Below are positions 3,001 to 27,370 of a stretch of DNA of 64,000 bases, piece by piece. The DNA is from Eubacterium sp. (GTDB taxonomy: Bacteria; Bacillota; Clostridia; Lachnospirales; Lachnospiraceae), in NCBI GenBank assembly GCA_024698585.1, contig JAILRB010000064.1:62001-126000 (forward strand), in the 5' to 3' direction. Under the pieces are notes generated by a model. The model ran no database searches. It was given only the letters and a program-made list of their open reading frames with translations, and was not told where the DNA came from. Made by a program: the position numbers and the translations under genes. The first letter of the stretch is position 1; each line of letters begins with the position of its first letter.

Positions 3001-4459
3001 AGTTACATCAGCAGAAAATGCCTCTGTAGGTGGCGATAAATTAGTAGATAACAATAAGACAACTCGTTGGTCATCACAGTTTAATGATAACGAGTCAGCA
3101 GTAATTGACTTAGGTCAGAATTACACAATCAACAAAGTAACACTTGCGTGGGAAGCTTCTTATGCAAAAGAATATAAGATTCAGGTTTCTACAAATGGAA
3201 CAAACTACACAACCGTTTATGAAAACAACAACGGTAAGGGTGGCGACGAAGAAATCGTATTTAATGCCACAGACGCAAGATATGTAAAGATTCAGGGTGT
3301 GAAGCGTGCATTAGCATACGGATATTCTCTTTGGGAAGTAGGCGTTTATGAAGCAGCAAAGGTTGCACAGCCAACATTCAGCAAGGCTTCAGGAACTTAT
3401 TCCGGAACACAGAATATTTCTATCAGCAGTGCAACAAAGGGTGTTGAAATCCGTTATACAACAGATGGTTCTACACCAAACCAAAATTCAAAACTTTACG
3501 TACCAACTGTAAAAATCAGTAATACAACAACATTAAAGGCAGTTGCATACCGCAAGGGCATGATTGCTTCAGATGTTGCAACAGCAACTTATACTATTGA
3601 CGGAAGCGGCCAGCCGGAACCTCCGGTACAGCCACCTGTAGAAGGCAACCTTGCAGAAGGCAAGACAACAACATCTTCCGGTGACGAAAACGGAGCAATG
3701 GCTTCTGCCAATGCAGTAGATGGAAATGCCGGAACACGTTGGTCATCCAACTTCTCAGATGATGCTTGGGTAACTGTAGACCTTGGAGCAACATATTCTA
3801 TCAGCAGAGTTGTTCTTACATGGGAAGCAGCTTACGGAAAAGCATACAAGATTCAGGTATCAACCAATGGAAATGACTGGACAACAGTTAAGACATTGAA
3901 CAACCAGAATGGTGGAACCGATGAAATCGACTTTACAGCAACCGATGCAAGATATGTAAGAATGCAGGGTGTTGAAAGAGCATTACCATACGGATATTCT
4001 CTTTGGGAAATGGAAGTTTATGGAGAAGGAAATGGTTCCGGCGGTTCAGGTTCCGGCGGATCAACAAATGGGGCAAATGTAGCTTTAAATAAAACAGTTA
4101 CAGCAACCGGCGCCGAAAATGATGCAATGGCAGCTGCTAATGCGGTAGATGGAAATTCCGGAACACGTTGGTCATCTAACTTTGCAGATGATGCATCAAT
4201 GACAGTAGATCTTGGACAGGTATATTCCATCAATCGAGTTGTAATTCTTTGGGAAGCAGCTTATGGAAAGGCATATAAGATTCAGGTTTCTACCAATGGA
4301 AGTGATTGGACTACCGTAGCAAATATGTCAAATCAGGATGGTGGAACAGATCCTGTGACATTTAACACAGTAAACGCAAGATATGTAAAAATGCAGGGTG
4401 TTGAACGTGCATTACCATATGGATATTCTATTTGGGAATTCGGCGTTTATGGTGAATAA
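2..4459 (+). CDS. GH81 endo-beta-1,3-glucanase, multimodular, secreted (5' end outside window)
   Basis: The reading frame is open from base 2, so the gene starts upstream and the signal peptide is not visible; a TTG at 23 is only an internal codon. Modules in order: the end of an F5/8-type C (CBM32-like) domain (to about 290), a GH81 catalytic domain (about 300-2650), a chitobiase-C-type beta-sandwich (about 2700-2950), F5/8-C (2970-3360), a second chitobiase-C module (3366-3600), and two more F5/8-C domains (3640-4025, 4070-4456). GH81 hallmarks are DHHFTYGYF (about 1677-1703, with the presumed acid Asp) and GNNQESASES (about 1888-1917, with the presumed base Glu). GH81 enzymes cut beta-1,3-glucan such as laminarin, curdlan and fungal or oat glucan outside the cell. 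There is no LPXTG anchor; the protein ends in the last CBM. It holds about 30 N-X-S/T sequons in about 1480 residues, useful as a comparison for the island protein. The family call is firm; the substrate is inferred. Confidence 0.9.
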   Translation, partial: GEADNQWLTVDLGRNYTIGRVIIDWASDAGKMYDIQVSTNGNDWTTLYRETKGSGFHVANVELYANARYVRMYGFTRVESGSGFSIYEMKVYEYKNGDPHVTHNIPELPQSRVVSDGKGTYLANSMYNEKAKLPIYKTDDINTPVASNDWWQSMLINKFGNTLCMLPFKARYSTKGLGILTATEGWLPDMGPTDVNVSVNSETENDFYIQPENFDTTTACDKVSGYSDFAVSAQLCDDNHVAMTSTFVKGSPYIFTEYGDTQTITLVSANISSIFDGNGNEILTTNLSSLTADHIGIEVTDNDNKDRTKTAKSYYCLTVPANTVFKKIGKNIRITFPGNNGYMSIGTMNSKSQIDTFFHHGYAFVTNTAVTYDYNDGNAKITSNYTATTTLKRAGFDNNTFMCMLPHQWKNSNDDNNAFTTYTSVRGDLKTVNSNSFATVSDFAGLLPTFALPRNAEFDGEAVLGYLSQLEDATKNLNPAGDAYWEGKNLHPLGMGVLMADQLGETELRDVFLKRIKKILVNWFTYDGQNDISYFIYNQNWGTLFYEQSEFGANAAICDHHFTYGYFMFAATVLATYDEQFYNDYKGMIELMIRDYANPSDNDSEYCRFRAYDMYEGHSWAGGYADNDSGNNQESASESLFSWVSMYLWGVLTENDTYRDAGVFGFTNEMEAVEQYWFDYDKDNWIDAWPYDVVGQVYGGINFYGTFFGGQPLYVYGIQWLPISEYLTYYGMNQTRAAEIYAGLENDTDVALAKAIQVAQNEGKTQAEIDKMVNEYPHQDTGWQHITWPFLSQTNPTLAMQKFLANDTKVQRTDTANTYWFISAMKELGVKTTEIVATGDCSAAVYYNKDTRKYTATVWNPTNETKVVGFKVNGTQKGTATIGAKALVSFEVYKDRNFNIQQAETPEISVPTGTYDDTQYVTLSSSTPGATIHYTTDGSMPNTSSPVYDGSTFAVSSTATVKAIAVKDQYITSAMASSTITVDGSDVSKDTNIALGKNVTVTSAENASVGGDKLVDNNKTTRWSSQFNDNESAVIDLGQNYTINKVTLAWEASYAKEYKIQVSTNGTNYTTVYENNNGKGGDEEIVFNATDARYVKIQGVKRALAYGYSLWEVGVYEAAKVAQPTFSKASGTYSGTQNISISSATKGVEIRYTTDGSTPNQNSKLYVPTVKISNTTTLKAVAYRKGMIASDVATATYTIDGSGQPEPPVQPPVEGNLAEGKTTTSSGDENGAMASANAVDGNAGTRWSSNFSDDAWVTVDLGATYSISRVVLTWEAAYGKAYKIQVSTNGNDWTTVKTLNNQNGGTDEIDFTATDARYVRMQGVERALPYGYSLWEMEVYGEGNGSGGSGSGGSTNGANVALNKTVTATGAENDAMAAANAVDGNSGTRWSSNFADDASMTVDLGQVYSINRVVILWEAAYGKAYKIQVSTNGSDWTTVANMSNQDGGTDPVTFNTVNARYVKMQGVERALPYGYSIWEFGVYGE

Positions 4460-14509: not shown

Positions 14510-15664
14510 ATGGCAGAGAAAAGAGATTATTATGAAGTGCTAGGCGTTGACAGAAACGCCGATGAAGCAACAATCAAAAAAGCATACAGACAGCTGGCAA
14601 AGAAATATCATCCGGATGCAAACCCAGGAGAAGAAGCTGCAGCAAAATTTAAAGAAGCCTCCGAAGCTTATGCAGTATTAAGTGATGCGGAAAAGAGACG
14701 TCAGTATGATCAGTTCGGTCATGCAGCTTTCGAAGGTGGAGCCGGTGGGGCCGGTGGATTTGACTTCAGCAACTTTGACTTCGGTGATATTTTCGGCGGT
14801 GGCTTCGGCGATATCTTCGGTGATATCTTCGGTGGTGGCAGAAGCAGACGAAACAATAATGGTCCGATGCGCGGAGCAGATGTTCGTGTAGGAGTTACCA
14901 TTACTTTTGAAGAATCCGTGAAAGGTTGTCAGAAAAATGTCTCCATTAATTTTAAGGAGATTTGTAAGACATGTAACGGAACCGGTGCAAAGCCGGGAAC
15001 AACACCGGAAACTTGTACCCAGTGTAATGGTACTGGACAGTATGTGACAAAACGTCAGACCTTATTTGGAATGATGCAGTCCGTAGATACTTGTCCAAAC
15101 TGTCACGGGGAAGGGAAAATTGTTAAAGAGAAATGTACTGACTGTTATGGTGCAGGATATAAACAGATTCGTAAGACTATTCCGGTGGATATTCCGGCAG
15201 GAATTGATGATATGAACAGAATTCGTGTTAATGGCGAAGGAGAACCTGGAAAGAACGGTGGACCACGTGGAGATTTATTAGTGGATGTTCGTGTCATCCC
15301 AAGCAGAGAATTTAGACGTGAAGGAATGGATATCTACAATACGACATATATTTCTTATGCTCAGGCAGCGTTAGGTGGTGATGTCCGTGTGAACACTGTT
15401 TACGGTGATGTGAAGACTACCATTAAGCCTGGTACCCAGACAGGAACCCGTGTGAGACTAAAAGGAAAAGGAATGCCTCATGTTCACAATATGCAGGCCT
15501 TGGGAAATCAGTACACCACATTGGTTGTTCAGGTTCCAACTCATTTAAACAGCGAGCAGAAGGAATTGCTTAGAAAGTTTGATGAGATTTCAGGAAATAC
15601 CTTAAAAGAATTTTCTGATGAACCGGAACAGGAAAAGCCAAAGAAAAAGTTTTTCAAAAAATAA
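14510..15664 (+). CDS. dnaJ: Co-chaperone DnaJ (Hsp40)
   Basis: 384 residues with the full type I layout: J domain (1-70, HPD motif in KKYHPDA), a Gly/Phe-rich linker (about 75-125), a zinc domain with four CxxCxGxG repeats ([32 protein letters not shown]) and two C-terminal beta domains. It delivers clients to DnaK and stimulates its ATPase. The end is Lys-rich (KPKKKFFKK). It follows dnaK after 149 bases that hold three hairpins. In Bacillus prmA would come next; here the accessory island intervenes. Confidence 0.98.
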
Positions 15665-15699
15665 TATGACTTTAGCAAGGACATACTAAAGGGGGCATC

Positions 15700-16431
15700 A
15701 TGCAGGATACGCAGAAGAAAATGGACGTAAATGTTTTTATTGATGAATCCGGGAGTATCACAAAAACCAAGATTTCCCAAAATCAATATTTTGTGATGGC
15801 AATTTTATTTACCCGGGATTCCACAAAAATAAAGAGACAGTTTCGTAAGGGAATTGCCTCTTTGTTAAAGAAGCCTAAATTTCAACACTTGATGGATAAG
15901 GAAAATGAAATCAAGGGTTCTGAAGTATCTGAAAATCGAAAGAAGGCGATTTATGACCGAATTCTTCGTACTTGTGGAGATGATTTTGAATTGGGAATCA
16001 TTGTCATTAATAATGAACACACCACAGATGATTTTATCCGCAATCATGCCCGAACCTTTAATTATGTCCTTCAATTATTTTTGGACACATCGTTTCGAAA
16101 GAAAAGTACATATGCATCTAATGTGAATGCCATGAATCTGAGGATTGATGAGCAAAATATTGCAACAGATACCCGATATACGTTAGATGATTATCTGGAA
16201 CAGCAGTTTACGGTGTATCATCCATTATGTGATCATTTTAATGTAGAATATGTGGATTCTAAACAACATTCTATGATTCAGTTGGTAGACTTTATCGCCA
16301 ACACCTTTTACAGAAATCTGGAAAAGCATGATGAAATTAGCAAAGAGACCGTTGCAATGTTAAAAGACAAGTTAATTGGAGGAAACATTTTTCTGTTTCC
16401 CAACACATATGATACGAAATTATTCTTGTAA
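15700..16431 (+). CDS. DUF3800 domain protein
   Basis: 243 residues. The N-terminal FIDESGS (about 13-19) and the later SMIQLVDFIANTFYRN helix with its conserved Asp are the signature of DUF3800, a family with an RNase H-like fold prediction that is often found in accessory or defence-linked DNA. Function is unproven. ATG 15700 follows AAAGGGGG. It lies 35 bases after dnaJ, may partly be read from that operon, and ends in its own terminator. It is the first gene of the island that separates dnaJ from prmA. Confidence 0.75.
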   Translation: MQDTQKKMDVNVFIDESGSITKTKISQNQYFVMAILFTRDSTKIKRQFRKGIASLLKKPKFQHLMDKENEIKGSEVSENRKKAIYDRILRTCGDDFELGIIVINNEHTTDDFIRNHARTFNYVLQLFLDTSFRKKSTYASNVNAMNLRIDEQNIATDTRYTLDDYLEQQFTVYHPLCDHFNVEYVDSKQHSMIQLVDFIANTFYRNLEKHDEISKETVAMLKDKLIGGNIFLFPNTYDTKLFL

Positions 16432-16436
16432 ATAGA

Positions 16437-16469
16437 AAAACATTTATCCGAACGGGTAAGTGTTTTTTT
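16437..16469 (+). terminator. Terminator after the DUF3800 gene
   Basis: AAACATTTATCC / GGGTAAGTGTTT stem around GAAC, continuing into a run of seven T. Confidence 0.8.
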
Positions 16470-16470
16470 A

Positions 16471-16500
16471 TTGACGGTTAGCTATCCTTCGCGTTACAAT
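16471..16500 (+). promoter_or_regulatory. Promoter of the sequon-rich surface protein gene
   Basis: TTGACG (16471-16476), an 18-base spacer and TACAAT (16495-16500), placed between the preceding terminator and the ribosome site of the surface protein gene. Confidence 0.65.
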
Positions 16501-16562
16501 AGACATATGTATGAGATTTAATAGAAAACAAAGTGATTTATAGATTTTTTGGAGGTGAAAAA

Positions 16563-19451
16563 ATGAAAAAGACGATTTCGGTTATGCTGTCTTGCATATT
16601 AACCTTCGCATTGGTATTATCAATATTTCCGGTAAATACTTATGCCACGACAGAGGGGATTTCTACCTGGGAACAGTTGAAGGAAGCTTTGGAAAGCGGA
16701 GAGACGGAAATATACCTTGACGAAGAGGAAACGATTGTGGCAACGTCGGATATCGAAGTGACGTTGAAAAAAGGGCAGAATGTAAGAGTGTATTCAGCAG
16801 ATGGAAAAGATATCATTAGTATGGATTACACAAACTATGGGATTCACGTATATGGAGAAGGTCAAATTACATTTGAAAACATTCCGTTTGTAAATTACGC
16901 GAATCCATGTATTGTAAATGAAGAAAGCGATTCCGTGGATATCTTTTTAAAAAATTGTGTATTCTTTGATGGCGACGGCGAACAGGTTAAAGGAAATTAC
17001 ACAGTTCAAACTGTTGAACCCCCTAAAAAAGAAATTCAAAGCGTATCAAAGAATCGCGTTTTAGCTCCCGTCCCAATGGGAATTTCTAATGTTTCTGAAT
17101 ATCATTATCCTGATGATTTTCTTTACTGCAATGTAACAGACCATAGAATACCAACATTTCTTTCTGTGGAACACGATTCTAGCCTTCTCTTCGGTGATGA
17201 TGTTGTGTTGAATATTACAATGGATGATTGTAATATGTCCGGCAGTGTCGATATGGAAATCTATTCTATAAAAGATAGTGTATTATTTGAAGAAACAATA
17301 GAAATGTTAGCGGAAGAAGCACTTGCAAACGTAATGTACAATGAAATACCAACAATTTCATTGGATGAGGGGAACCTCAGTTATGAAGAGATGGGAATCG
17401 ATAGTTTGATAGAACGGTACAATGTGCCACTGACAGATGGAAAAGGAAATGTCACGGTTCCGGGAGTATTAGGAGGAAACTATTGTGCGATAGCTACTTA
17501 CGCAGGGGATGAGAGCCATGCTCCGTCACAGAGTTTTTCGTTTTTGGAAATTGAGAAATATCAAACAAATATCGCGCTGGAGATGGAGGATTTTTATTAT
17601 GGTGAGCCGGGAGTGATTGATGTTACTGTGAACTCAGAAAATGTGACCGGGAACGTCACTATAGAAGTTTATGACGTTGACGATTTTTACTATGATGAAG
17701 AGCAGCATAAGGTTTATAATGGTACTATGGAAGAATCCTATGAAGGAGAGTTGGTCGATGGAGTTAGTCATGTTGAAATCGAAGGACTTTCTCTTGGAGA
17801 CCATTTTATTCGTGCTGTTTATCTCGGAGATGATTTACATTGGGGTAGTGATTTTGTAACAAATCTTACTGTTAATAAAGGCAATACTACAATCATTATT
17901 GATCAGCCGGATGGATATTTAGGTACAGAAGAAGATGGTTTCAATGTGATAGCAACCACTGCTGATAATGCTACCGGAAACTTCACACTTAAAATGGGGG
18001 GCGATATTATAGATACGACTGAAATTAAGGATGGAAAGGCTAAGATTTCTGTTATTGGTTTCCCAGAGGGAATTTATAATGCATCAATTATATATAATGG
18101 GGATGACAATTATAATTCGGCAAGCATAGAATTTCCGGTGCAGATTATTCGGAAAATATTTAAAGGGTTAGCTGTTGATGCAAAAGAATGTCTGGAGTAT
18201 GGAGAAAATCAAACAATAGGGATCAACTTAACGAATCTAAACGTTAGTTATGGTGGTTATATGTATGATGTCGATGGGAATGCCAATGTTGCAGTGAACA
18301 TTAAAAACGCGACTACAAATGATACAGTATTTCAGCAGAGTGTACGTCCAATTGATGGAAGGGCATATGTTGAAATATCGGAGTTACCTGTGGGTAATTA
18401 TTTCTTAGATGTTGATTATTCAGGAAATAAATATAATCACAATGCAAGTGTTTCAAATGCTTTAACAATTGTTAAAGCAAAACCGGTACTGAATATTACA
18501 GCAGATTCTATTCCGGAAGAAAGTATGGTTTTAATTAACATTGACGCCGCTGATAAGCGTGGTAAGTTGATAGATGGGAATGTTTCTGTGGAAGTATTAA
18601 ATAGTAATGGAAATACTTGTGTGAATGACACCTTTGATGTGATTCAGGGATTGGCACAGGTTCCATTGGAGAATTTGTCGGCAGACAATTATACGGTTCA
18701 GGCTCAGTTTATTGAAGATGCTCGGTATACAGAAAGTAATGTGGTTCAGGCCAATTTCACAGTTACAGGTGGAGAGGAATCTTCTACTGAACCAACTACG
18801 GAAGAAAATACAACAACGCCTGTTACAGAAGAACCTACCACACAGAAGAACGTTGAAACATCAACGGCTCAAGTGATTGACAATGAGAAAGATGTCAAGG
18901 GTTCAAAATATCATGTTCTTCAGTTAAAACAGAAAAAAGTCGGGAAGAAATCCATTAAAATCCGATGGAAGAAGCTGAAAGGTGCTAAGAAGTACGTAGT
19001 TTATTATAGTAAGTGTGGACGTACTAGAAAATGCAAGAAGTTGGCAGAAACGAAGAAGACTGCGTATACACTTAAAAAACTGAAAAAGGGAACTTATTAT
19101 AAGTTTGTTGTTATAGCACTGAACAAGAAAGGAAAGGTTCTTTCCATTTCAAAGATGGCGCATATTGCTACATTAGGCGGAAAGAATGGAAATGCTAACA
19201 AGGTTACTGTGAACAAGAATAAAGTAACCCTGACAAAAGGCAAAAAAATCAAATTGAAAGGCAAAGCAATATCTGCATCTAAAAAGATACGTATTAAAGA
19301 ACATAGGACAGTTCGATACGAAAGCGATAATAAAAAGATTGCAACTGTAACGAAGAAAGGTGTTATTCGAGGAAAAGCGAAGGGAACATGTCATATCTAT
19401 GTTTACGTACAGAATGGCTTTAGCAAAAAAGTTAAGGTTACTGTAAAATAG
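16563..19451 (+). CDS. Secreted Ig-repeat surface protein with very dense N-X-S/T sequons
   Basis: 962 residues. ATG 16563 with GGAGGTG six bases upstream starts a clear signal peptide (KK, hydrophobic core, cleavage near TYA-TT around residue 29); an upstream GTG at 16533 has no such support. After about 110 residues come five Ig-like repeats of about 100 residues, each closing with a Y-x-G-D/N-x-x-Y-type strand (near residues 313, 420, 510, 619, 716), similar to bacterial Ig-like domain 3. A Thr/Glu linker (about 740-770) leads to an FN3 domain (about 785-865) and a Big_2 domain (about 880-960), modules common on Lachnospiraceae surface proteins. I count 28 N-X-S/T sequons (20 Thr, 8 Ser) from N145 to N749 and none elsewhere, although Asn also occurs outside. 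There is no sortase motif. A glycan-carrying adhesin or scaffold is inferred. Confidence 0.8.
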   Translation: MKKTISVMLSCILTFALVLSIFPVNTYATTEGISTWEQLKEALESGETEIYLDEEETIVATSDIEVTLKKGQNVRVYSADGKDIISMDYTNYGIHVYGEGQITFENIPFVNYANPCIVNEESDSVDIFLKNCVFFDGDGEQVKGNYTVQTVEPPKKEIQSVSKNRVLAPVPMGISNVSEYHYPDDFLYCNVTDHRIPTFLSVEHDSSLLFGDDVVLNITMDDCNMSGSVDMEIYSIKDSVLFEETIEMLAEEALANVMYNEIPTISLDEGNLSYEEMGIDSLIERYNVPLTDGKGNVTVPGVLGGNYCAIATYAGDESHAPSQSFSFLEIEKYQTNIALEMEDFYYGEPGVIDVTVNSENVTGNVTIEVYDVDDFYYDEEQHKVYNGTMEESYEGELVDGVSHVEIEGLSLGDHFIRAVYLGDDLHWGSDFVTNLTVNKGNTTIIIDQPDGYLGTEEDGFNVIATTADNATGNFTLKMGGDIIDTTEIKDGKAKISVIGFPEGIYNASIIYNGDDNYNSASIEFPVQIIRKIFKGLAVDAKECLEYGENQTIGINLTNLNVSYGGYMYDVDGNANVAVNIKNATTNDTVFQQSVRPIDGRAYVEISELPVGNYFLDVDYSGNKYNHNASVSNALTIVKAKPVLNITADSIPEESMVLINIDAADKRGKLIDGNVSVEVLNSNGNTCVNDTFDVIQGLAQVPLENLSADNYTVQAQFIEDARYTESNVVQANFTVTGGEESSTEPTTEENTTTPVTEEPTTQKNVETSTAQVIDNEKDVKGSKYHVLQLKQKKVGKKSIKIRWKKLKGAKKYVVYYSKCGRTRKCKKLAETKKTAYTLKKLKKGTYYKFVVIALNKKGKVLSISKMAHIATLGGKNGNANKVTVNKNKVTLTKGKKIKLKGKAISASKKIRIKEHRTVRYESDNKKIATVTKKGVIRGKAKGTCHIYVYVQNGFSKKVKVTVK

Positions 19452-19465
19452 GTTTAAGATTTATG

Positions 19466-19503
19466 AGGGTTTTACATTTCAAAGGTGATGTAAAACCCTT
19501 ATT
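19466..19503 (+). terminator. Terminator-like hairpin after the surface protein gene
   Basis: AGGGTTTTACAT (19466-19477) pairs perfectly with ATGTAAAACCCT (19488-19499), followed by only a short U-rich tail. It may allow partial read-through into the glycosylation operon, for which I see no separate strong promoter. Confidence 0.6.
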
Positions 19504-19533
19504 GATAGAGAGAGTTAGGAACGAAACAGCAAG

Positions 19534-20976
19534 ATGTCAAAAATCAGAGTAGTTTTTAAAAACATAAGTTGGTTGGCAGTTGCGCAGATGATTAACAGCA
19601 TTTGTGCGTTTTTTTGGACCATTGTTATTGCTAATTATCTCGGAGTGACAAAGTATGGGATAATCTCTTTCTCCACTTCATTCATTGGAATTGCAATTCT
19701 ATTGATTGATTTGGGAATTACAACTTATGTAACAAGAGAAGTGGCGCGAAACAGAAAGCGCTTGGATGAATATATTAATCTGACACTTCCCTTAAAGCTG
19801 ATTTTATCGTTTGCTGTTTTTTTTCTCGGATTGTTTTTTCTCATTGTATCAGGCTGTGGAAAAACGACCATTGTTGTGACACTCATCTATATGGTCGAGA
19901 TGATATTGATGACTTTCACGCAGTTAATCAATGGAATTTTTCAAGCATACGAGGAATTGAAATATCAGTCAATCGGAGCGTTGATTAATTGTGGACTTCT
20001 CATTGGTGGGATTCTGATTACAATTCTTAGCGATTGGGGAATCTATGGAATCGCATTATCTTATGTCGTTGGGTATAGTGGATTTTTCGGATTTATGGCG
20101 TGGAGGTATGTTAAACAGTTTGGGTGGCCAAGCCCTAAAATAAACTGTTCGAAAAGCCTCTTAATTATCAAGAAGTCGTTGCCTTTTGGAATCACTACGT
20201 TATTTAATACAATTTATTTTGGAATTAATACGGTCATGTTGTCCGGAATGAAGGGAGACTACGAGGCAGGAATCTATAAAGCAGTCTTTAATATTCTTCT
20301 AGTATTTACAACATTATTTTCCGTATATCAGCTTGTGCTATTTCCTGTAGTAAGCAATTTTTTTGTGAATCAAAAAGGACTAATTCAGAAAAGCTACGAG
20401 AAATCTGTAAAGTATTTAATGGCAGTAATCTTACCGATTTGTGCGGGAATATTTTTTTATGCAAAACAAATTCTTATGTTGATTTATAATCAGTCTTATG
20501 GAGAAGCCATTTTGCCATTAAAGATTTCTATATGGACGGTTATAGTTTTGTTTCTCAATGGAGCAACTATTCTTGTACTTAACGCAATTAATATGGAACG
20601 ACGGGTGACAATGATTTACCTGCTTGGAGCGGTAGTAAATGTTTTAATAAATCTATTATTGGTTCCGGGGTATTCTTATAACGGATCGGCAGTGGCGACT
20701 TTGACCAGCTGTTCATTTATTTTTTTGATTTTACTAACGCAAATATCTAAAACAGAGTTCCAACCGGGAATACATTTGTTGATGGATGTTGTGAAAATTG
20801 CTATCGCAACAATGGGAATGTTTCTTGTTCTATGTGTGTTACATCCATCGCTGTGGGTGGGCATCTTTGTAGGAGTACTTGTATACGGAGCATTATTTAT
20901 AGGACTACGACTTGTGGACGAAACGGATTGTACGTTGTTGAAACTTTTGATACATAAGGAAAAAGAGGAACAATGA
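19534..20976 (+). CDS. Wzx/PST-family polysaccharide or lipid-linked oligosaccharide flippase
   Basis: 480 residues with about 14 membrane segments and the N-terminal layout of the polysaccharide transport (RfbX/Wzx) branch of the MOP superfamily: a helix with GVTKYGIISFS and LGITTYVTREVARNRKR. Such proteins move undecaprenyl-linked glycans from the inner to the outer face of the membrane. Here it heads an operon that ends in an STT3 oligosaccharyltransferase, so its cargo is most simply the lipid-linked donor glycan. It overlaps the LicD gene by four bases, a sign of translational coupling. The ribosome site (AGGAAC) is weak and rather far from ATG 19534. Confidence 0.85.
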   Translation: MSKIRVVFKNISWLAVAQMINSICAFFWTIVIANYLGVTKYGIISFSTSFIGIAILLIDLGITTYVTREVARNRKRLDEYINLTLPLKLILSFAVFFLGLFFLIVSGCGKTTIVVTLIYMVEMILMTFTQLINGIFQAYEELKYQSIGALINCGLLIGGILITILSDWGIYGIALSYVVGYSGFFGFMAWRYVKQFGWPSPKINCSKSLLIIKKSLPFGITTLFNTIYFGINTVMLSGMKGDYEAGIYKAVFNILLVFTTLFSVYQLVLFPVVSNFFVNQKGLIQKSYEKSVKYLMAVILPICAGIFFYAKQILMLIYNQSYGEAILPLKISIWTVIVLFLNGATILVLNAINMERRVTMIYLLGAVVNVLINLLLVPGYSYNGSAVATLTSCSFIFLILLTQISKTEFQPGIHLLMDVVKIAIATMGMFLVLCVLHPSLWVGIFVGVLVYGALFIGLRLVDETDCTLLKLLIHKEKEEQ

Positions 20977-21815
20977 ATTATACTGATTATCAGAAGGAAA
21001 CGTTGAAAAAATTACAAAAAACGGAACGGGAAATTTTTCGTTATTTTGTTCAGCTTTGTGAAAAACATCAGATTACTTATTATATGTTTGGTGGATCATT
21101 GCTTGGGACTGTCCGTCATCAGGGATTTATTCCGTGGGACGACGATATTGATGTGGCAATGTTTCGCAAAGATTTTGAGATATTTGAAAAAATATTGGAA
21201 GAGGAAAAATCAGAACAGTACTATCTGGTTTCTACCCAAAATGAAAAAGACTATTTTTTATACTTTCCAAAGCTAATGCTGAGAGGCACAAAGTTTAAGG
21301 AATGGTGGGCTGAACAGGTTCACTTTGAAACGGGAATCTTCATTGATATTTTTATTATAGATGGCTTGCCTGAGAATTGTATTCGACAAAAACTGCATAT
21401 TTTGAAAACGAGATTTTTGTCTCGTATGCTTGCCATTGCAACATTGAAGTTTCAGGGATACCCCAAAAGAATACAGCTTCCGGTGAATATATTGCACACC
21501 CTGTTTGGTTGGACGCATCTTTCAAAGGAGTTTTTGAAAAGAAAAACAATCAATGCTTTGGGGAAGTATGATGCAAAGGAAAGCGGAGAATGTTTTTGCG
21601 TGGCAACAGTGCCGTACCCACCGGTTTGGAAAATTGAAGATTTTATTCCGGGAAGGGAAGGTGTTTTTGAAGGAATGACGGTGCAGATTCCGAATCATTC
21701 GAATCAATTGCTTAAAAATTTCTATGGGGATTATATGAAACTGCCACCGGAAAATGAGCGATATAATCATCGAACCAATGAAATTGATTTTGGAAATTGT
21801 GGTGAAAAGAAATGA
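20973..21815 (+). CDS. LicD-family transferase
   Basis: 280 residues. The hallmark GGSLLGTVRHQGFIPWDDDID (about residues 38-58) is the LicD/nucleotidyltransferase-fold motif, with the DDDID metal-binding acids. LicD proteins move phosphocholine or similar phospho-groups from CDP donors onto sugars, and eukaryotic fukutin relatives act on glycoprotein glycans. In this operon it probably decorates the lipid-linked glycan with a phospho-substituent. No CDP-choline synthesis genes are nearby, so the donor is unknown. It overlaps both neighbours by four bases. Confidence 0.88.
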   Translation: MNYTDYQKETLKKLQKTEREIFRYFVQLCEKHQITYYMFGGSLLGTVRHQGFIPWDDDIDVAMFRKDFEIFEKILEEEKSEQYYLVSTQNEKDYFLYFPKLMLRGTKFKEWWAEQVHFETGIFIDIFIIDGLPENCIRQKLHILKTRFLSRMLAIATLKFQGYPKRIQLPVNILHTLFGWTHLSKEFLKRKTINALGKYDAKESGECFCVATVPYPPVWKIEDFIPGREGVFEGMTVQIPNHSNQLLKNFYGDYMKLPPENERYNHRTNEIDFGNCGEKK

Positions 21816-22552
21816 GAGATTTATTAGTAATAATACCGGCATACAACGAGGAAAAATCAATTGCCGAAACGGTAGAAGGGCTAAAAGAACAAACGGATTT
21901 TGATTATCTGGTTATTGATGACGGCTCAACTGATCAAACCTGGCAGGTGTGTTTAAAAAACGAGTACCGAGTAATACATTTCGATGAAAACAGAGGATTG
22001 GGATGTGTTTTTAGAGAAGTGATTCCATATGCTTTAGAACATGGGTATCATGCAATTGCTCAGTTTGATGCAGATGGACAGCATCGGTGTGTGGATTTGT
22101 TGAAATTGGCAAAACTCTATGAGGAAGAGCAGCCGGATGTTTATATCGGTGTGAGAAACTTAAAAGGATTAAAAAAATTTTCACCAAGAGCAATAGGCAG
22201 TAAACTGATTCGAATCAGTATATACCTAAAGACCGGGGTGAAGTTAAAGGATCCTACTTCAGGATTGAGAATCTTTGGAGAGAAGGCTATGCGCAGGTAT
22301 CTTCAGGGAGAATTCAAGAGACCGGAACCGGATATGCTGACTAAATTGTTGTTAGAAGGGTATTCGTTTCAGGAGACCCCTATTATTGTTGAAAAAAGAA
22401 AATACGGCGAGTCTTTTTTAAAGGGATTCAAAGGAGTTCGATTTGTACTTGATATCTGTACAACAATTTTAAAAATGCCAAAAGGAAAGCAGACAGAAAG
22501 TGAATTTAAGAATGGAAAAAATAAAAGTAAGTTTGATTCTTCCGGTCTATAA
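21812..22552 (+). CDS. GT2 glycosyltransferase, dolichyl-phosphate-mannose synthase-like
   Basis: 246 residues, one GT-A domain without membrane anchors. The nucleotide-sugar motifs are VIDDGSTDQT (about 34-43) and the metal-binding FDADGQH (about 85-91); the acceptor-site region TSGLRIFG follows. This resembles DPM1 and the archaeal AglJ/AglD group, which load single sugars onto a polyprenyl phosphate. If the similarity holds, the enzyme would make a polyprenyl-monophosphate sugar, either as the first step of the donor glycan or as a luminal sugar donor. It overlaps LicD by four bases and the next GT by 41. Confidence 0.85.
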   Translation: MRDLLVIIPAYNEEKSIAETVEGLKEQTDFDYLVIDDGSTDQTWQVCLKNEYRVIHFDENRGLGCVFREVIPYALEHGYHAIAQFDADGQHRCVDLLKLAKLYEEEQPDVYIGVRNLKGLKKFSPRAIGSKLIRISIYLKTGVKLKDPTSGLRIFGEKAMRRYLQGEFKRPEPDMLTKLLLEGYSFQETPIIVEKRKYGESFLKGFKGVRFVLDICTTILKMPKGKQTESEFKNGKNKSKFDSSGL

Positions 22553-23546
22553 TGTTGAAAAATATCTTGCCAGATGTTTGGAATCGTTGGTAAGACAGAC
22601 CCTCAAAGGGGTGGAAATCATATGTGTTAATGACGGTTCCAAAGATGGAAGTCTTGCACTGTTAAGAAAGTATGAGGAAGCTTACCCTTGCATTCGAGTA
22701 ATTGATAAGGAAAATGAAGGGGTTTTCAAAGCAAGGGGAGAAGGACTCAAGTATGCCACTGGGGAGTACATTGGTTTTGTTGATCCGGATGATTATGTGG
22801 CTGAAAATTACGTAGAGAAATTGTATCAAAAAGCCAAAGGAAGTAATGCTGATATTGTTTGCTGTGGATATGAACGAATTGACGAGACTACAGGAAAAGT
22901 CTATTCCAAGGAAATGAATCGTTATGGAACAAAAACAATTACCTTCGATTCCAATCCGGAAGGAATTTTATCTGTAAATACAGCTTTATGGAATAAAATA
23001 TTTAAGGCGGAATTGTTGCAGGACATTGATGGCTTTGACTGCATTCAACCAAGGATTATGGAAGACTTCAGCTTATTGTTGTTAGTCTATAGAAACGTGA
23101 AAAGAATCTCTTTTATTGATGATATTTTATATTTTTATATTGTTCGTCAAAGTGGAATCATCATGTCGATTGATAAGAAAAAAATAGCCGGTGCAGAAAA
23201 AACTACGCTTCAGATTAGAAAGTTGTATGAAAATCAAGGTGAGAATGACCGTATGGAAATTATTGACTTGATGGCTTTTTTACATTTGGGGATTAACCTA
23301 ATGTATTTTGTATCGGCGACTGACTCTGATTTTAAAGAAACACTGAAAAAGAATCGAGAATTTTTGGAACAAAATTTTCCGTTGTGGAAAAACAGTAACT
23401 ATTTAAAGTTATCCTATACATTAAAACATGGTTTCAATAGGAAAATAGCTGTGGTAAGACTCCTTGACAAACTCCATTTGTTCCGGCTTTTTTTAGCAAT
23501 GTATCGCTTTATGATTCGGAGACTGCACATTGATATTAAGTGGTAA
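22512..23546 (+). CDS. GT2 family glycosyltransferase
   Basis: 344 residues. N-terminal GT-A domain: VSLILPVYNVEKYLARCLES, CVNDGSKDGS and the metal motif FVDPDDYV. The C-terminal 120 residues are helical and typical of GT2 enzymes from capsule and surface-glycan clusters. The frame is open from a GTG at 22500; ATG 22512 is chosen because the conserved fold begins directly after it, though no strong ribosome site marks either. It overlaps the preceding GT gene, so it is probably translated by coupling. It would extend the lipid-linked glycan; sugar specificity cannot be read. Confidence 0.85.
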   Translation: MEKIKVSLILPVYNVEKYLARCLESLVRQTLKGVEIICVNDGSKDGSLALLRKYEEAYPCIRVIDKENEGVFKARGEGLKYATGEYIGFVDPDDYVAENYVEKLYQKAKGSNADIVCCGYERIDETTGKVYSKEMNRYGTKTITFDSNPEGILSVNTALWNKIFKAELLQDIDGFDCIQPRIMEDFSLLLLVYRNVKRISFIDDILYFYIVRQSGIIMSIDKKKIAGAEKTTLQIRKLYENQGENDRMEIIDLMAFLHLGINLMYFVSATDSDFKETLKKNREFLEQNFPLWKNSNYLKLSYTLKHGFNRKIAVVRLLDKLHLFRLFLAMYRFMIRRLHIDIKW

Positions 23547-23561
23547 AGGATAGAGGTTCAT

Positions 23562-26048
23562 ATGAAAGAAAAGAAAATGTTGAACATCAAAAAATATAAA
23601 ATGGATATCCTGTGGATTGTATTAATCCTGTTATTAACCTTTGGAATTCGATTTAGTCCTCTTGTATTGAAAGACTATTCCCAAAGTTATAATAAGGTAT
23701 TTGCGGATGCAAATTATGTTCCCTATACCAATGACCCGGGAGACTCTTATTATTATGCAAGAAGAATACAGGATTTTGCAGACGGAAAAAATCCGCTACA
23801 GCCCTTAAGTAGAGCGGGTGTGGATTCCAAAATGATAACATTAAGTCAGCAACGAGATGAGGCGTGGACAAGAAATCTTTTTCCAATGATTGGTGCATTT
23901 TTTGCAAAAGTGTTTGGAATTTTTGGAATAACTGATTTACTTTTGATTGGTACGATATATGTGTCATTCCTTATAGGGGTTTCATCAGTGATTCTATACC
24001 TTTTTGTCAAGAATCGGACGAATCGATTTGGAGGTGTGGTGGCTGCTGTGTTGCTTTCCTGTGGAACTCCGGTACTTGCAAATACAAACTGGGGACATTG
24101 TGATACAGACGGAATTCTCATATTATTACCACTTGCAATGATATTTTCTTTCTATAAAAGTTTGGAAGAAGAAAATCGAAAAGGGCGAGTACTTTGGAGT
24201 GCTGTCTCCTGTTTGTCCTATGCGATGATTTGCTTTTCTTGGTCTTCTTATAATGTTTACTATATTTTATTTCTTGGTGTTGCATGTGCAACACTTTTCG
24301 GCACACTGATTTTTAAAGGCGTATTCCCGAAAGGAATTCGACCGGTCATTTTAATACAGTTATTGGTAAACACATTATTCAGTCTGATTATAGACGGGAA
24401 AAGATTTGTCCAGGGATTGCTTAATCTATTCATATCCACTTCCGATGGAATAGGAAATGGTGCGGAGGGGTATCCCTCTGCTTCAAAATACATTGGAGAA
24501 CTGTTAAAACTGTCTTGGGTGTCCACTGAGATAGAACAGATTTTTGATACAACGGTTGGAACAAACATTAATATGTTAGGAGGAGCGGCGGTAATTCTTC
24601 TTGGACTATTTACCGCTATAGTTCTGATTATAATTTGTTTTAAAAATCGCAAGACAGAAGAAGAAAAGTTTCGCACTATGGGACTACAGGCAATGATTTT
24701 TATTCCATGGCTTATTGCAACGGTTGTCATGTTGTTTCAGGGAAGAAGATTTTTGGAATATATCTTGATGCCGCTATCGGTATTACTTGGATTTGGACTA
24801 GGATATATTGTTAATTACATTCGCGAGAACGAGTTGAACTTTGCCTTTTCCACCATGATTTATGTCATTTGCTTGATTGTTGTAGTAGGAACTTTTATGT
24901 CTTCGGAGTTAATCTTGGGAGTGAGTTCTTTTGTGGTAATCATTTTATGTGCCGGAATTGGAAGAAATAGGAATAAAAGGATAATGATGTTTCTTCTGGC
25001 GGGGGCGCTGGTTATTACACCGATAAACGGAGCATATAAATTAAGCAAGTCCTATCAGCCGGGAATTACATCTATTTACTATGATACAGCTGATTGGATT
25101 CAAAAGAATACAACGGAAGATTCCATGATTGCCAGTTGGTGGGACTATGGCTATTTTTATCAGTGCTACGGAGAACGGGCAACCATTGGTCATGGAGGTG
25201 TTTTCGACGGTCAGTATTTCTATTGGTTGGGTCGAGGTTTGTTAACATCGGATTATAAATTATCTGCCGGGATTTTCCGAATGCTTGGAAATGGGGGATT
25301 AACAGCCCAGAACATTTTGACGGAAATCATGAATGATCCGGAAAAAGAATGTGAGGCATTAGGAAAAATCCTACCGGCTTCAAAGGAGGAGGCAGAAAGT
25401 ATTCTAATCAGTCAGTACAATATTCCAAAAGAACGAGCTGAGGAAGTCATAAGTAAGACACATCCTTCTGATGGAAAACCAATTTATTTGGCTATAACTC
25501 AGGATATGTTTGCAAAAATGAAAGTTATAGCATACTACGGAACATGGGATTTCAAAGGGCATGATCCAGAGTATTATTATGTAACCTCTACGATTTCCCG
25601 TCATGTGGAAAAAGGCGAGACTGCACCGGTAAATGTGATGGGGAATGGAACAAACATCAGTAAGGTTGCCTATACAATTGACATGGAGGGTGCTGTAACA
25701 CCGCACGTTTATAGTAGGGAGAATAAGGAAATCAGTATGGACCGATATGTACTGATTGAGAATGGAGAAATCGTAAAAGATGTGAAAAAGCAGGATGCAA
25801 AAAATGCGATTGTTGTTTTTAAAGAAAATGATTATTATTCCTCTATTTGTTGTAACTCGGATTTTTGCGACAGTGTGATGTTCAGGTTGTTCTACACAGA
25901 TGCGGCAGAACAGAAAACCTACGAAAAAGTATTTACCACAGAAATATCAAACGATATCTTTGGTGACCACAGTATGATACAACATAGAATATGCTGTCCG
26001 GGACTAAGAACTTATCTTGGTTCTGCAGGAGTATACCAAATCAAGTAA
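23562..26048 (+). CDS. STT3-family oligosaccharyltransferase (PglB/AglB type)
   Basis: 828 residues: about 13 membrane segments up to about residue 490, then a soluble extracellular domain. Family landmarks are all present. The first acidic motif is NDPGDSYYYAR (57-67). The second is DTD at 181-183. The external-loop-5 Glu lies in STEIE (321-325). The WWDYG sequon-binding motif (526-530) is followed by GERATIGHGG and a later SAGIFRML segment, where PglB has its Met/Ile element. The family transfers a lipid-linked glycan to Asn in N-X-S/T on proteins crossing the membrane. It is longer than Campylobacter PglB (about 713). It is the last gene of the flippase-LicD-GT-GT operon and is followed by a terminator. 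The fold and motifs are seen; activity and glycan are inferred. Confidence 0.9.
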   Translation: MKEKKMLNIKKYKMDILWIVLILLLTFGIRFSPLVLKDYSQSYNKVFADANYVPYTNDPGDSYYYARRIQDFADGKNPLQPLSRAGVDSKMITLSQQRDEAWTRNLFPMIGAFFAKVFGIFGITDLLLIGTIYVSFLIGVSSVILYLFVKNRTNRFGGVVAAVLLSCGTPVLANTNWGHCDTDGILILLPLAMIFSFYKSLEEENRKGRVLWSAVSCLSYAMICFSWSSYNVYYILFLGVACATLFGTLIFKGVFPKGIRPVILIQLLVNTLFSLIIDGKRFVQGLLNLFISTSDGIGNGAEGYPSASKYIGELLKLSWVSTEIEQIFDTTVGTNINMLGGAAVILLGLFTAIVLIIICFKNRKTEEEKFRTMGLQAMIFIPWLIATVVMLFQGRRFLEYILMPLSVLLGFGLGYIVNYIRENELNFAFSTMIYVICLIVVVGTFMSSELILGVSSFVVIILCAGIGRNRNKRIMMFLLAGALVITPINGAYKLSKSYQPGITSIYYDTADWIQKNTTEDSMIASWWDYGYFYQCYGERATIGHGGVFDGQYFYWLGRGLLTSDYKLSAGIFRMLGNGGLTAQNILTEIMNDPEKECEALGKILPASKEEAESILISQYNIPKERAEEVISKTHPSDGKPIYLAITQDMFAKMKVIAYYGTWDFKGHDPEYYYVTSTISRHVEKGETAPVNVMGNGTNISKVAYTIDMEGAVTPHVYSRENKEISMDRYVLIENGEIVKDVKKQDAKNAIVVFKENDYYSSICCNSDFCDSVMFRLFYTDAAEQKTYEKVFTTEISNDIFGDHSMIQHRICCPGLRTYLGSAGVYQIK

Positions 26049-26051
26049 AAG

Positions 26052-26083
26052 AATGCCGTCAACAAAAGTTGGCGGCATTTTAA
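26052..26083 (+). terminator. Terminator after the oligosaccharyltransferase gene
   Basis: A 12-bp stem AATGCCGTCAAC / GTTGGCGGCATT (one T-G pair) around an AAAA loop, followed by TT and an A-rich tract. It closes the glycosylation operon. Confidence 0.75.
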
Positions 26084-26113
26084 AAAAGATAACAAAAGAA
26101 TCAAAGCAGAAGT

Positions 26114-26142
26114 TTGACACTGCCAAAATTAAGTGATATATT
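26114..26142 (+). promoter_or_regulatory. Strong sigma-A promoter of a candidate small RNA
   Basis: TTGACA (26114-26119), a 17-base spacer and TATATT (26137-26142). No open reading frame with a ribosome site follows before the next terminator. Confidence 0.75.
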
Positions 26143-26148
26143 AAAAGT

Positions 26149-26316
26149 ACCAAGTAATTCGTTTTGAAAGTGCATGAGGATGTAAGGCAGCTATAGCGTT
26201 GTCCGCTACGACGTGTTGGTAGAAAGGCATTCCAGATATGGGGTGACTTTCGATTTATGAATCAGTTAAAAGAAAGAGGATTTTTCCCGTCTACGAGGAA
26301 AAATCCTCTTTCTTTT
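26149..26316 (+). ncRNA. Candidate structured small RNA, about 168 nt, family not recognised
   Basis: The unit is framed by a near-consensus promoter and an exceptionally strong intrinsic terminator, and has no coding frame. Predicted pairing: ATTCG...GAAAGT (about 26157-26171) with ACTTTC...ATGAAT (about 26246-26262) as an outer irregular stem, and an inner TAGCG-TTGTC-CGCTA hairpin (about 26194-26208), separated by purine-rich unpaired stretches. The long irregular rod with a central bubble recalls 6S RNA in outline, and large Clostridia-specific RNAs such as raiA are alternatives, but I cannot match a known consensus. It could also be a leader of prmA, although the terminator and a second promoter argue for a separate transcript. 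Confidence 0.6.
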
Positions 26317-26317
26317 A
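26269..26317 (+). terminator. Strong terminator of the candidate small RNA
   Basis: AAAGAAAGAGGATTTTTCC (26269-26287) pairs without mismatch with the complementary run at 26297-26315, ending in a U-rich tail. The A-rich left arm means that it could also work on the other strand. Confidence 0.85.
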
Positions 26318-26347
26318 TGTGACGACTGCTGGCAAAAATCTGGGAGG

Positions 26348-26377
26348 TTGCCAAATAAACCGTGAATATGCTATGAT
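26348..26377 (+). promoter_or_regulatory. Promoter of the prmA gene cluster
   Basis: TTGCCA (26348-26353), an 18-base spacer and TATGAT (26372-26377), 36 bases before the prmA start. Confidence 0.65.
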
Positions 26378-26413
26378 TGTAAATTGATATGCAATTTTGA
26401 AAAGGATAGAATT

Positions 26414-27370
26414 ATGAAGTGGAATAAATACAGATTAAAGACGACAACCCAGGCGACAGATTTTGTCTGCGGTCTTTTGATAGAATTAGGAATTAACGGA
26501 ATGGAAGTGGAAGATAATGTTCAGCTTTCCGAAGAAGAAAAGAAAGTACAGTTCATTGATTATCTGGCAGACCTGCCGGAGGATGACGGAACGGCATATA
26601 TCAACTTTTATACAGAAGAAAATGATGATGCAGAAGCATTGCTGGAGCAGTTGAGAGAAAAATTGAAAGAAGCCAATTCTTTCCTGGATGTGGGAGAAGG
26701 AAGTATTGAAAAGAGTATCACGGAAGATGTGGATTGGGTAAATAACTGGAAGCAGTATTTCAAATCCTTCACAGTAGATAACTTCTTTATTAAGCCGACC
26801 TGGGAAGAACCGGATGAAGCACATAAGGATATGCAGATGATTGAAATTGATCCGGGAACTGCCTTTGGAACCGGAAAGCATGATACGACACAGCTTTGTA
26901 TCAAGCAATTGATTCGATATCTGAAAGCCGGAGATACTGTTTTGGATTTAGGATGTGGCAGTGGAATTCTTTCTATTGTGGCTAAGAAACTTGGAGCCGG
27001 TGCAGTGTCCATGACGGATATTGATGAAGCAGCAATCGTGGCTTCCAAAGAAAATTTTGAAGTGAATCATATTGCCACGGATGATGTGGAAATGTTTGAC
27101 GGAAATGTTTTGGAAGATGAGGCAATGCAGCAGCACTTTGAAGAAAAGCAGTTTGATGTGGTTGTGGCAAACATTTTGGCAGACGTCATTATTCCGATTG
27201 CAGGAATTGTGGATCGTTTCTTAAAGCCGGGAGGAATCTTTATTTCTTCGGGAATTATATATATGAAAGAAGACGATGTGGTAAAGGCCATTGAAGAGAA
27301 TGATGCGTTAATTCTTGAGGCAATTGAAAAACAGGGAGATTGGCGTGCCATTATGGCAATTAAGAAATAG
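26414..27370 (+). CDS. prmA: Ribosomal protein L11 methyltransferase
   Basis: 318 residues. The C-terminal Rossmann methyltransferase domain has the PrmA-specific EIDPGTAFGTGKHDTT followed by the SAM loop DLGCGSGILSI and the N-A-N-I-L catalytic-site segment (VVANILADV). The N-terminal 150 residues form the L11-recognition domain and linker. PrmA trimethylates residues of ribosomal protein L11. ATG 26414 with AAAGGA eight bases upstream is chosen over a TTG at 26384. It opens the prmA-rsmE-nifS-thiI cluster (gaps of 9-13 bases). Confidence 0.95.
   Translation: MKWNKYRLKTTTQATDFVCGLLIELGINGMEVEDNVQLSEEEKKVQFIDYLADLPEDDGTAYINFYTEENDDAEALLEQLREKLKEANSFLDVGEGSIEKSITEDVDWVNNWKQYFKSFTVDNFFIKPTWEEPDEAHKDMQMIEIDPGTAFGTGKHDTTQLCIKQLIRYLKAGDTVLDLGCGSGILSIVAKKLGAGAVSMTDIDEAAIVASKENFEVNHIATDDVEMFDGNVLEDEAMQQHFEEKQFDVVVANILADVIIPIAGIVDRFLKPGGIFISSGIIYMKEDDVVKAIEENDALILEAIEKQGDWRAIMAIKK

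Follow-up and report, generated by a model that had tools for sequence, protein, structure and literature searches.

A six-gene unit with an STT3-family oligosaccharyltransferase and a sequon-dense surface protein in a Gram-positive Eubacterium

Genes of the locus and the oligosaccharyltransferase

The window, the 64-kb stretch of DNA analyzed here, comes from a rumen-type Gram-positive bacterium of a group that is major in gut and rumen, and carries a run of six genes on the + strand. The first (16533–19451) encodes a 972-aa secreted surface protein, a putative glycan acceptor by virtue of its Pfam domains, sequon count, and co-presence with the cassette downstream. An intercistronic hairpin with a 16-bp stem and an 8-nt loop (19463–19502, + strand) lies between this gene and that of a 480-aa Wzx/MOP-type flippase (19534–20976; Polysacc_synt, 118 bits). 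There follow genes for a 280-aa LicD family phosphotransferase (20973–21815; LicD, 145 bits), a glycosyltransferase, GT2a, resembling polyprenyl-phosphate sugar transferases of the PpgS, AglJ, and DPM type (21812–22552; Glycos_transf_2, 82 bits), a second glycosyltransferase, GT2b (GTG 22500 or ATG 22512 to 23546; Glycos_transf_2, 131 bits), and an 828-aa STT3-family oligosaccharyltransferase (OST), recognized by Pfam, motifs, and fold (23562–26048). Re-checking reproduced the coordinates and strand of the last five ORFs as given in a preliminary description of this DNA, together with the 4-base overlaps and 15-base gap between them; the 41-base GT2a/GT2b overlap holds with ATG 22512 as the GT2b start. 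That description drew the unit too short, at five genes, and overlooked the sequon-dense secreted Ig-domain protein encoded just upstream (16533–19451). The six genes are absent together or present together across species, and the mobile unit therefore comprises six genes, acceptor included. The hairpin folds in all four cassettes (stem 15–16 bp, z −4.7 to −5.2). Promoter-like matches are at chance level (41 versus 38.9 expected), and RNA family searches recovered one tRNA in the 64-kb window and none inside the cassette.

Description of the cassette as complete-looking was an overstatement, because it contains no phosphoglycosyltransferase: Pfam detects no initiating enzyme of this kind among the six genes, and the genome encodes elsewhere one PF00953 protein, which reads as MraY, and four PF02397 proteins. 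No polymerase was recognized in the cassette by Pfam. GT2b is 45% identical to a GT2 of an OST locus in another genome, G160, where LicD is fused to the flippase (locus L211). GT2a scores 64 bits against the NCBIfam PpgS model and 49 bits against the AglJ equivalog (cut-off 325), and the AglG equivalog is matched at 56 bits (cut-off 440), all far below threshold; the matched transferases may nonetheless function like AglJ and AglG.

An HMM search with STT3 (PF02516), proposed earlier as a check, places the 828-residue protein above the cut-off (64.8 bits versus 24.5 for the N-terminal domain), and the STT3-PglB_core family (PF21436) is also matched (34.0 bits, cut-off 23). The WWDYG motif at residues 526–530 (25137–25151) and the D181-T182-D183 motif (24102–24110), both correctly located in the preliminary description, are unchanged in 12/12 aligned STT3 proteins, as are the N-terminal acid D61 (23742–23744) and the candidate loop-5 Glu, E313 (24498–24500), all encoded on the + strand. 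The N-terminal acidic motif had been placed more broadly, at 57–63, where an acid is indeed present and D61 is the invariant one; assignment of the loop-5 Glu to 321–325 looks wrong because E313 is the only invariant Glu of that stretch. We take WWDxG, DxD, the N-terminal Asp, and the loop-5 Glu to have the catalytic roles customarily given them in STT3. The predicted structure, of moderate confidence (pLDDT 70), contains a GT-C membrane part and a C-terminal globular domain, and structure comparison of this model assigns it to the PglB/Stt3/AglB fold type. PglB is the best match in both Foldseek and profile searches, at only 14–16% identity in structure alignments, and OSTs outrank DPY19 in both structure comparisons. 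The stt3 gene is under purifying selection (dN/dS 0.07–0.10). Family, fold, and motifs together provide good support for the last gene of the window as a true STT3-family OST, which would transfer glycan to the Asn of N-X-S/T sites.

The putative acceptor and its sequons

The acceptor has a signal-type N-terminus, with a likely true start at ATG 16563, and its Pfam domains are Big_3_5 Ig repeats followed by C-terminal fn3 and Big_2. Its 972 residues contain 28 N-X-S/T sequons, compared with 9.8 ± 2.9 (maximum 20) in 2000 shuffles, the highest sequon z among 530 sampled ORFs of its own genome, and the reversed motif is at expectation (10). All 28 sites fall within a stalk spanning residues 155–761 (16995–18815, + strand). 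Tandem repeats were rejected as the source of the excess, as the gene contains no repeat array and the 28 sites occur in 28 distinct sequence contexts. The C-terminal region (18813–19448, + strand), common to many secreted proteins of the family, presumably fixes the protein to the cell surface. One of the four cassette acceptors, at L014 in G403, is not enriched (9 sequons versus 6.9), and sequon positions are poorly conserved between distant acceptors (9/27 and 3/19). Acidic residues at −2 occur at 8/62 putative sites (8.3 expected) and 15/140 sites of the clade that includes strain MC2017 (18.5 expected); the acidic −2 preference of the Campylobacter type is thus not seen at these putative, rather than mapped, sites.

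Three control sets were drawn from genomes without an STT3 match (OST−). Proteins with the same C-terminal region contain 160 sequons versus 165 expected (n = 29; two at z 2.3–2.5), beta-helix proteins 222 versus 184 (n = 23; highest z 3.8, at L221), and PF16640 Ig proteins, in which ORFs cut by locus ends were counted over the part present, 309 versus 275 (n = 27; 0/27 enriched, none over z 1.8). A family habit was accordingly rejected as the origin of the excess, the controls being mostly at expectation and the beta-helix set mildly above it. The latter set was reduced from 30 to 23 by removal of two ORF-less loci and of five others labeled OST+ (L217, L219, L222, L244, and L240 of G160). 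Among those left out, L217 is the same protein as the L021 acceptor; L219 (G252) has 36 sequons versus 20.7, but its reversed motif occurs 32 times; L222 (G194) has 15 versus 7.0, under an OST+ label that is generous because its STT3 match is below cut-off; and L244 (G000) is not enriched (7 versus 9.6).

Distribution and transfer

On a 140-kb contig, dnaJ and prmA flank the genes, which occupy the same place in three genomes; a close sister species lacks all six at this site, and a third species has the six together at another. The enzyme was found in 4/23 genus members. The low dS of the genes for acceptor, flippase, and LicD fits a recent transfer of these three together, but it is not shared by gt2b (0.66) or stt3 (0.40). 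In unit-encoded acceptors dN/dS is 0.51. STT3 matches at E 1e-3 occur in 12/397 genomes of a Lachnospiraceae sample, eight of them above cut-off; seven of these eight loci encode a WWD[YFQ]G protein (the exception is G281), and none was found at the examined loci of the four matches below cut-off. A Bacillota sample gave matches in 12/398, two above cut-off, and 0/9 examined loci, from the 11 matches other than G000, encode a WWD[YFQ]G protein. In a more distant clade of OSTs, to which that of MC2017 belongs, the neighbors are unrelated sequon-dense secreted proteins; MC2017 encodes a 1267-residue protein near its OST. Of all OST loci, 13/19 have no neighbor over z 4, two of the 13 being on short contigs. 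No plasmid copies were found in 72,556 records.

Most of the genomes with names are metagenome assemblies, which might suggest an assembly or binning artefact, such as archaeal DNA in a metagenome bin. This explanation is scarcely credible: shared synteny in the dnaJ–prmA place of three genomes, on a 140-kb contig, contradicts it, as do the presence of the enzyme in 4/23 genus members and an MC2017 record not titled as a metagenome assembly. Archaeal contamination is ruled out by the shared synteny, the empty site in the sister species, and recurrence in several genomes.

Proposed function and relation to known systems

The six genes likely form a mobile unit that N-glycosylates a surface protein of its own: they probably build a short sugar chain and attach it to asparagines of that protein. 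The data are best read as N-glycosylation with a single target, or a small number of targets, at the cell surface. Synthesis of a short, polyprenyl-linked glycan would begin with GT2a and continue with GT2b, the sugars, carrier, and number of phosphates being presumed. LicD would add a phospho-group, and the flippase would turn the lipid-linked glycan in the presumed outward direction. The STT3 enzyme would then transfer the glycan to the exported 972-residue protein, at N-X-T/S sequons of its Ig stalk; the C-terminal region presumably holds this protein on the cell surface. Weighing against this reading are the unenriched L014 acceptor, the 13 OST loci with no neighbor over z 4, the poor conservation of sequon positions, the missing phosphoglycosyltransferase, the dS of gt2b and stt3, the mild excess in OST− beta-helix proteins, and the moderate confidence of the structural model.

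It is rather unlikely that the neighbor is just one target of a general pathway modifying many exported proteins. Known bacterial OSTs act in trans, and such breadth would accommodate a sequon-dense G052 protein encoded on a contig other than that of the OST (27 versus 10) and a second, mildly enriched secreted protein of G000 (14 versus 5.3, z 3.7); glycosylation of ordinary sequons would also be compatible with a lack of enrichment. The unit, however, brings its own acceptor, and the six genes are absent together. Observed/expected sequon ratios of secreted-like proteins overlap between OST+ genomes (G000, 1.21; G398, 1.15) and OST− relatives (G282, 0.92; G409, 0.95; G404, 1.32), and sequon excess does not separate these two secretomes from the other three. 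From the N-linked system of a Gram-positive bacterium put forward earlier, the STT3-type OST in a Lachnospiraceae-type bacterium stands, with a general pathway neither supported nor excluded. Less probable again is that the many sequons simply follow from Ig or beta-strand composition or from repeat expansion, or serve some other role, with STT3 acting elsewhere. The mild excess in OST− beta-helix proteins, the unenriched L014 acceptor, and the inflation of the G052 count by repeats (L258; 27 sites, 18 distinct contexts) are in keeping with such an origin, but the near-expected PF16640 and C-terminal-region controls argue against it, as do the distinct contexts, the lack of a tandem array, and the unremarkable reversed motif in the window acceptor. 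Transfer to a non-Asn target, such as a cell-wall glycan or a different amino acid, within an exopolysaccharide-type cluster is very improbable given the conservation of WWDYG, DTD, and the loop-5 Glu in all 12 aligned proteins, the ranking of OSTs above DPY19, and sequon-dense neighbors in two distant clades.

If the self-targeted unit works as proposed, it would provide N-glycosylation in compact form together with a native 28-site acceptor, and a related OST locus exists in a named strain, MC2017. The unit opens to direct testing whether Gram-positive bacteria N-glycosylate proteins. Engineers may also gain an OST requiring no acidic residue at −2. A broader and more tentative picture, which may well not hold, is that of a mobile, fast-changing N-glycan coat of Gram-positive gut bacteria: acceptors diversify (dN/dS 0.51) but largely retain their sequon density, the enzyme travels with its acceptor from species to species, and acceptors of the distant OST clade, in cis and in trans, have an N-terminal export-type motif in common. 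On this view, N-glycosylated surface stalks beside STT3 would have evolved on no fewer than two occasions within Lachnospiraceae; their glycan may bear a phospho-group, and protection from phage, antibody, or protease is a conceivable role.

N-linked sugar-coating of proteins occurs in eukaryotes, in archaea, and in a small number of Gram-negative bacteria. OST-based bacterial systems have been described for epsilon- and deltaproteobacteria and Aquificae (PMC4894442). Searches of open-access papers yielded no recognizable report of an STT3 enzyme from Lachnospiraceae or other Bacillota, although an earlier one may exist. Like Campylobacter PglB and its Desulfovibrio homologues, the window enzyme is a single-protein bacterial OST of the STT3 family, and the missing acidic −2 preference at its putative sites resembles the relaxed −2 requirement of some Desulfovibrio OSTs (PMC4894442). 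The locus differs from Campylobacter Pgl in its Bacillota host, in encoding an acceptor within the unit, and in a cassette devoid of genes for pgl-type sugar synthesis. Its flippase is of the MOP type, whereas PglK of Campylobacter is an ABC-type flippase. Relative to the Haloferax Agl system (AglJ, AglG, AglB), the host is bacterial, LicD and Wzx are present, and both glycosyltransferase matches are far below the curated cut-offs (325 and 440 bits). A MOP flippase beside LicD, fused to it in G160, resembles the Wzx-LicD pairing of phosphocholine teichoic acid export in pneumococcus, where the flippase TacF reportedly monitors phosphocholine content; the window cassette, unlike that system, ends in an STT3 enzyme, with no polymerase recognized. 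Serine-rich repeat adhesins are likewise surface proteins encoded with their own glycosylation genes, but their O-linked glycans are added by soluble cytoplasmic enzymes, whereas here an extracytoplasmic OST would act on N-X-S/T sites.

Cassette genes and the putative acceptor

The window (G000:C41:62001-126000) derives from a 2.51-Mb draft genome that is 93% complete. All five ORFs of the preliminary description were found as it had given them, each with Pfam support: a flippase (wzx; Polysacc_synt, 118 bits), LicD (145 bits), two GT2 enzymes, GT2a (82 bits) and GT2b (131 bits), and the oligosaccharyltransferase (OST; 23562..26048), whose proposed STT3 identity was borne out at 64.8 bits against a cut-off of 24.5. 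The same protein matches the STT3/PglB/AglB core domain (34 bits, cut-off 23). The window enzyme has those OST-family features that were tested. The five genes stood, and the extent of the cassette required revision: the gene just upstream of wzx (16533-19451), encoding a putative acceptor, belongs to it as well, giving a unit of six. The acceptor is a secreted protein in which Pfam recognizes Big_3_5 Ig repeats and, in the C-terminal part, fn3/Big_2. A strong intercistronic hairpin (19463-19502) with a stem of 15-16 bp occupies the acceptor-wzx gap in 4/4 cassettes, with no clear T-run after it, and may control how much acceptor is made relative to enzyme.

Sequon density in the putative acceptor and other proteins

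The acceptor carries 28 N-X-S/T sequons, 20 of them N-X-T, against 9.8 ± 2.9 in shuffles (0/2000 above 20); the reversed motif is found 10 times. Every one of the 28 falls within residues 155-759, with none in residues 1-146 or the C-terminal region; their sequence contexts are all distinct, and the gene contains no tandem array. Of the 530 ORFs that are 150 residues or longer (window plus 0.67 Mb of further G000 stretches), the acceptor ranks first in sequon enrichment, at z 5.85 versus 3.75 for the runner-up, and its orthologue in G398, another cassette-bearing genome of the genus, is first of 218 ORFs sampled there. The acceptor of a third, G403 (locus L014), is not enriched (9 sequons, 6.9 expected). 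Only 9/27 sequon positions are conserved between distant acceptors, indicating that density persists, not place.

Second in enrichment in the sampled G000 genome is a secreted-like protein of 739 residues (L194 9422-11641, G000:C33) with 14 sequons against 5.3 and two reversed motifs, which may be a further OST target. A large protein at window positions 23-4459, combining F5/8 type C domains with a GH81 C-terminal-type domain, has 30 sequons against 20.1 expected, yet 28 reversed motifs.

The Ig family PF16640 was searched in 338 family genomes, and 30 fetched loci were read. Two of these proteins are strongly enriched, each from an OST-encoding genome: the window acceptor, known before the search, and a G052 protein (27 sequons, 10 expected) on a different contig from its OST. 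The third from such a genome, G160, reaches z 1.7 overall, with 7/10 sequons within residues 64-170 (post hoc scan test, 2/1000 shuffles). None of the 27 PF16640 proteins from genomes without an STT3 match exceeds z 1.8 (309 versus 275 in total), and 29 proteins with the acceptor-type C-terminal region, likewise from genomes without a match, show no excess (160 versus 165).

A neighbour above z 4 occurs at 6/19 OST loci inspected (the window, L013, L129, L020, L021, L022); at the remaining 13, including the short contigs L016 and L023, every ORF is at or below z 2.5. Near the OST in L020 (strain MC2017), L021 and L022 (a locus cut by a contig end), secreted proteins contain 54, 45, 41 and 30 sequons (expected 18.9, 13.9, 14.3 and 10.9) and differ from the acceptor in domain make-up (beta-helix, Big_2); the window and MC2017 clades lie far apart in an unrooted, long-branched tree of 18 OSTs. 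MC2017-type acceptors, the G052 protein and a G160 neighbour have in common an unusual N-terminal export-type motif, which may mark OST clients. Clear matches number three in G052, these being its three sequon-dense proteins, and one in G160. The motif is long, with several Cys and Tyr/Met residues (L020, L021, L022, L258 (G052:C31), L211 (G160)), and the proteins sharing it are sequon-dense, vary in domain make-up and come from OST-encoding genomes.

Distribution and divergence of the six-gene unit

The OST is present in 4/23 genomes of the genus. The dnaJ-prmA interval (window 15664-26417) carries the cassette in G000, G398 and G403. In G404, whose DnaK, DnaJ, DUF3800 and PrmA proteins share 97-99% identity with those of the window, dnaJ-DUF3800-prmA are consecutive on a single contig, the acceptor and cassette are missing from that site, and no STT3 was found anywhere in the genome. 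G405 has all six genes in unchanged order; the contig that carries them lacks dnaJ and prmA, and prmA of this genome lies on a different contig. The interval varies within the genus (L122-L125 and L130-L132 compared): G414 and G416 have nothing there, G404 and G417 have DUF3800 alone, G282 carries a MATE-like gene, G409 encodes a CN_hydrolase/fn3 protein, and G407 has three ORFs, one a polysaccharide deacetylase.

Between G000 and G398, dS is low for the acceptor (0.057), wzx (0.028) and licD (0.031), as recent joint transfer of these three would leave, and higher for gt2a (0.16), gt2b (0.66) and stt3 (0.40); five flanking genes range from 0.32 to 1.3. From these divergences, gt2b and stt3 apparently lay outside the latest transfer event. 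Among the genes measured in this pair, dN/dS is highest for the acceptor (0.51).

The preliminary description had proposed a working N-linked system. Across predicted secreted proteins at large, identified by a simple hydropathy rule, observed/expected sequon ratios are 1.21 and 1.15 in OST-encoding genomes and 0.92, 0.95 and 1.32 in genomes lacking the OST, an overlap that neither supports nor excludes a general pathway. The interpretation should move from such a pathway to a mobile system in which one unit encodes both enzyme and acceptor, with a chemistry that we infer.

Proposed glycan assembly and known systems

GT2a scores far under the curated cut-offs for the polyprenyl-phosphate sugar transferases that it resembles (PpgS, AglJ, dolichyl-phosphate hexose transferase). 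In both the MC2017 clade and G160, relatives of 35-39% identity are encoded close to the OST; GT2b shares 45% identity with a GT2 from the G160 locus. In the window licD is a separate gene, whereas in G160 a LicD domain is fused to the MOP flippase beside the OST (L211 4761-7115, one protein of 784 residues), a natural fusion that ties the phospho-group to glycan export. The G000 genome has one PF00953 gene, its product read as MraY, and four PF02397 genes. The carrier may be a monophosphate, with GT2a starting the glycan, or a diphosphate, with one of the four PF02397 products doing so.

No earlier report of STT3 in Bacillota was found in the open-access literature. The available part of one article assigns bacterial OSTs to epsilon- and deltaproteobacteria and Aquificae, and mentions neither Firmicutes nor Gram-positive (PMC4894442); that of another mentions neither N-linked nor oligosaccharyl (PMC12355684). 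Excerpts elsewhere describe an STT3 tree with a few bacterial sequences inside its euryarchaeal part (PMC4973528) and an STT3B-like protein from M. smithii, an archaeon of the gut (PMC10939349). At -2 an acidic residue occurs in 8/62 putative sites (8.3 expected), so there is no preference for one. As characterized in the available text of PMC4894442, such a preference is a feature of Campylobacter PglB, from which these sites differ; in lacking it they agree with the relaxed Desulfovibrio enzymes.
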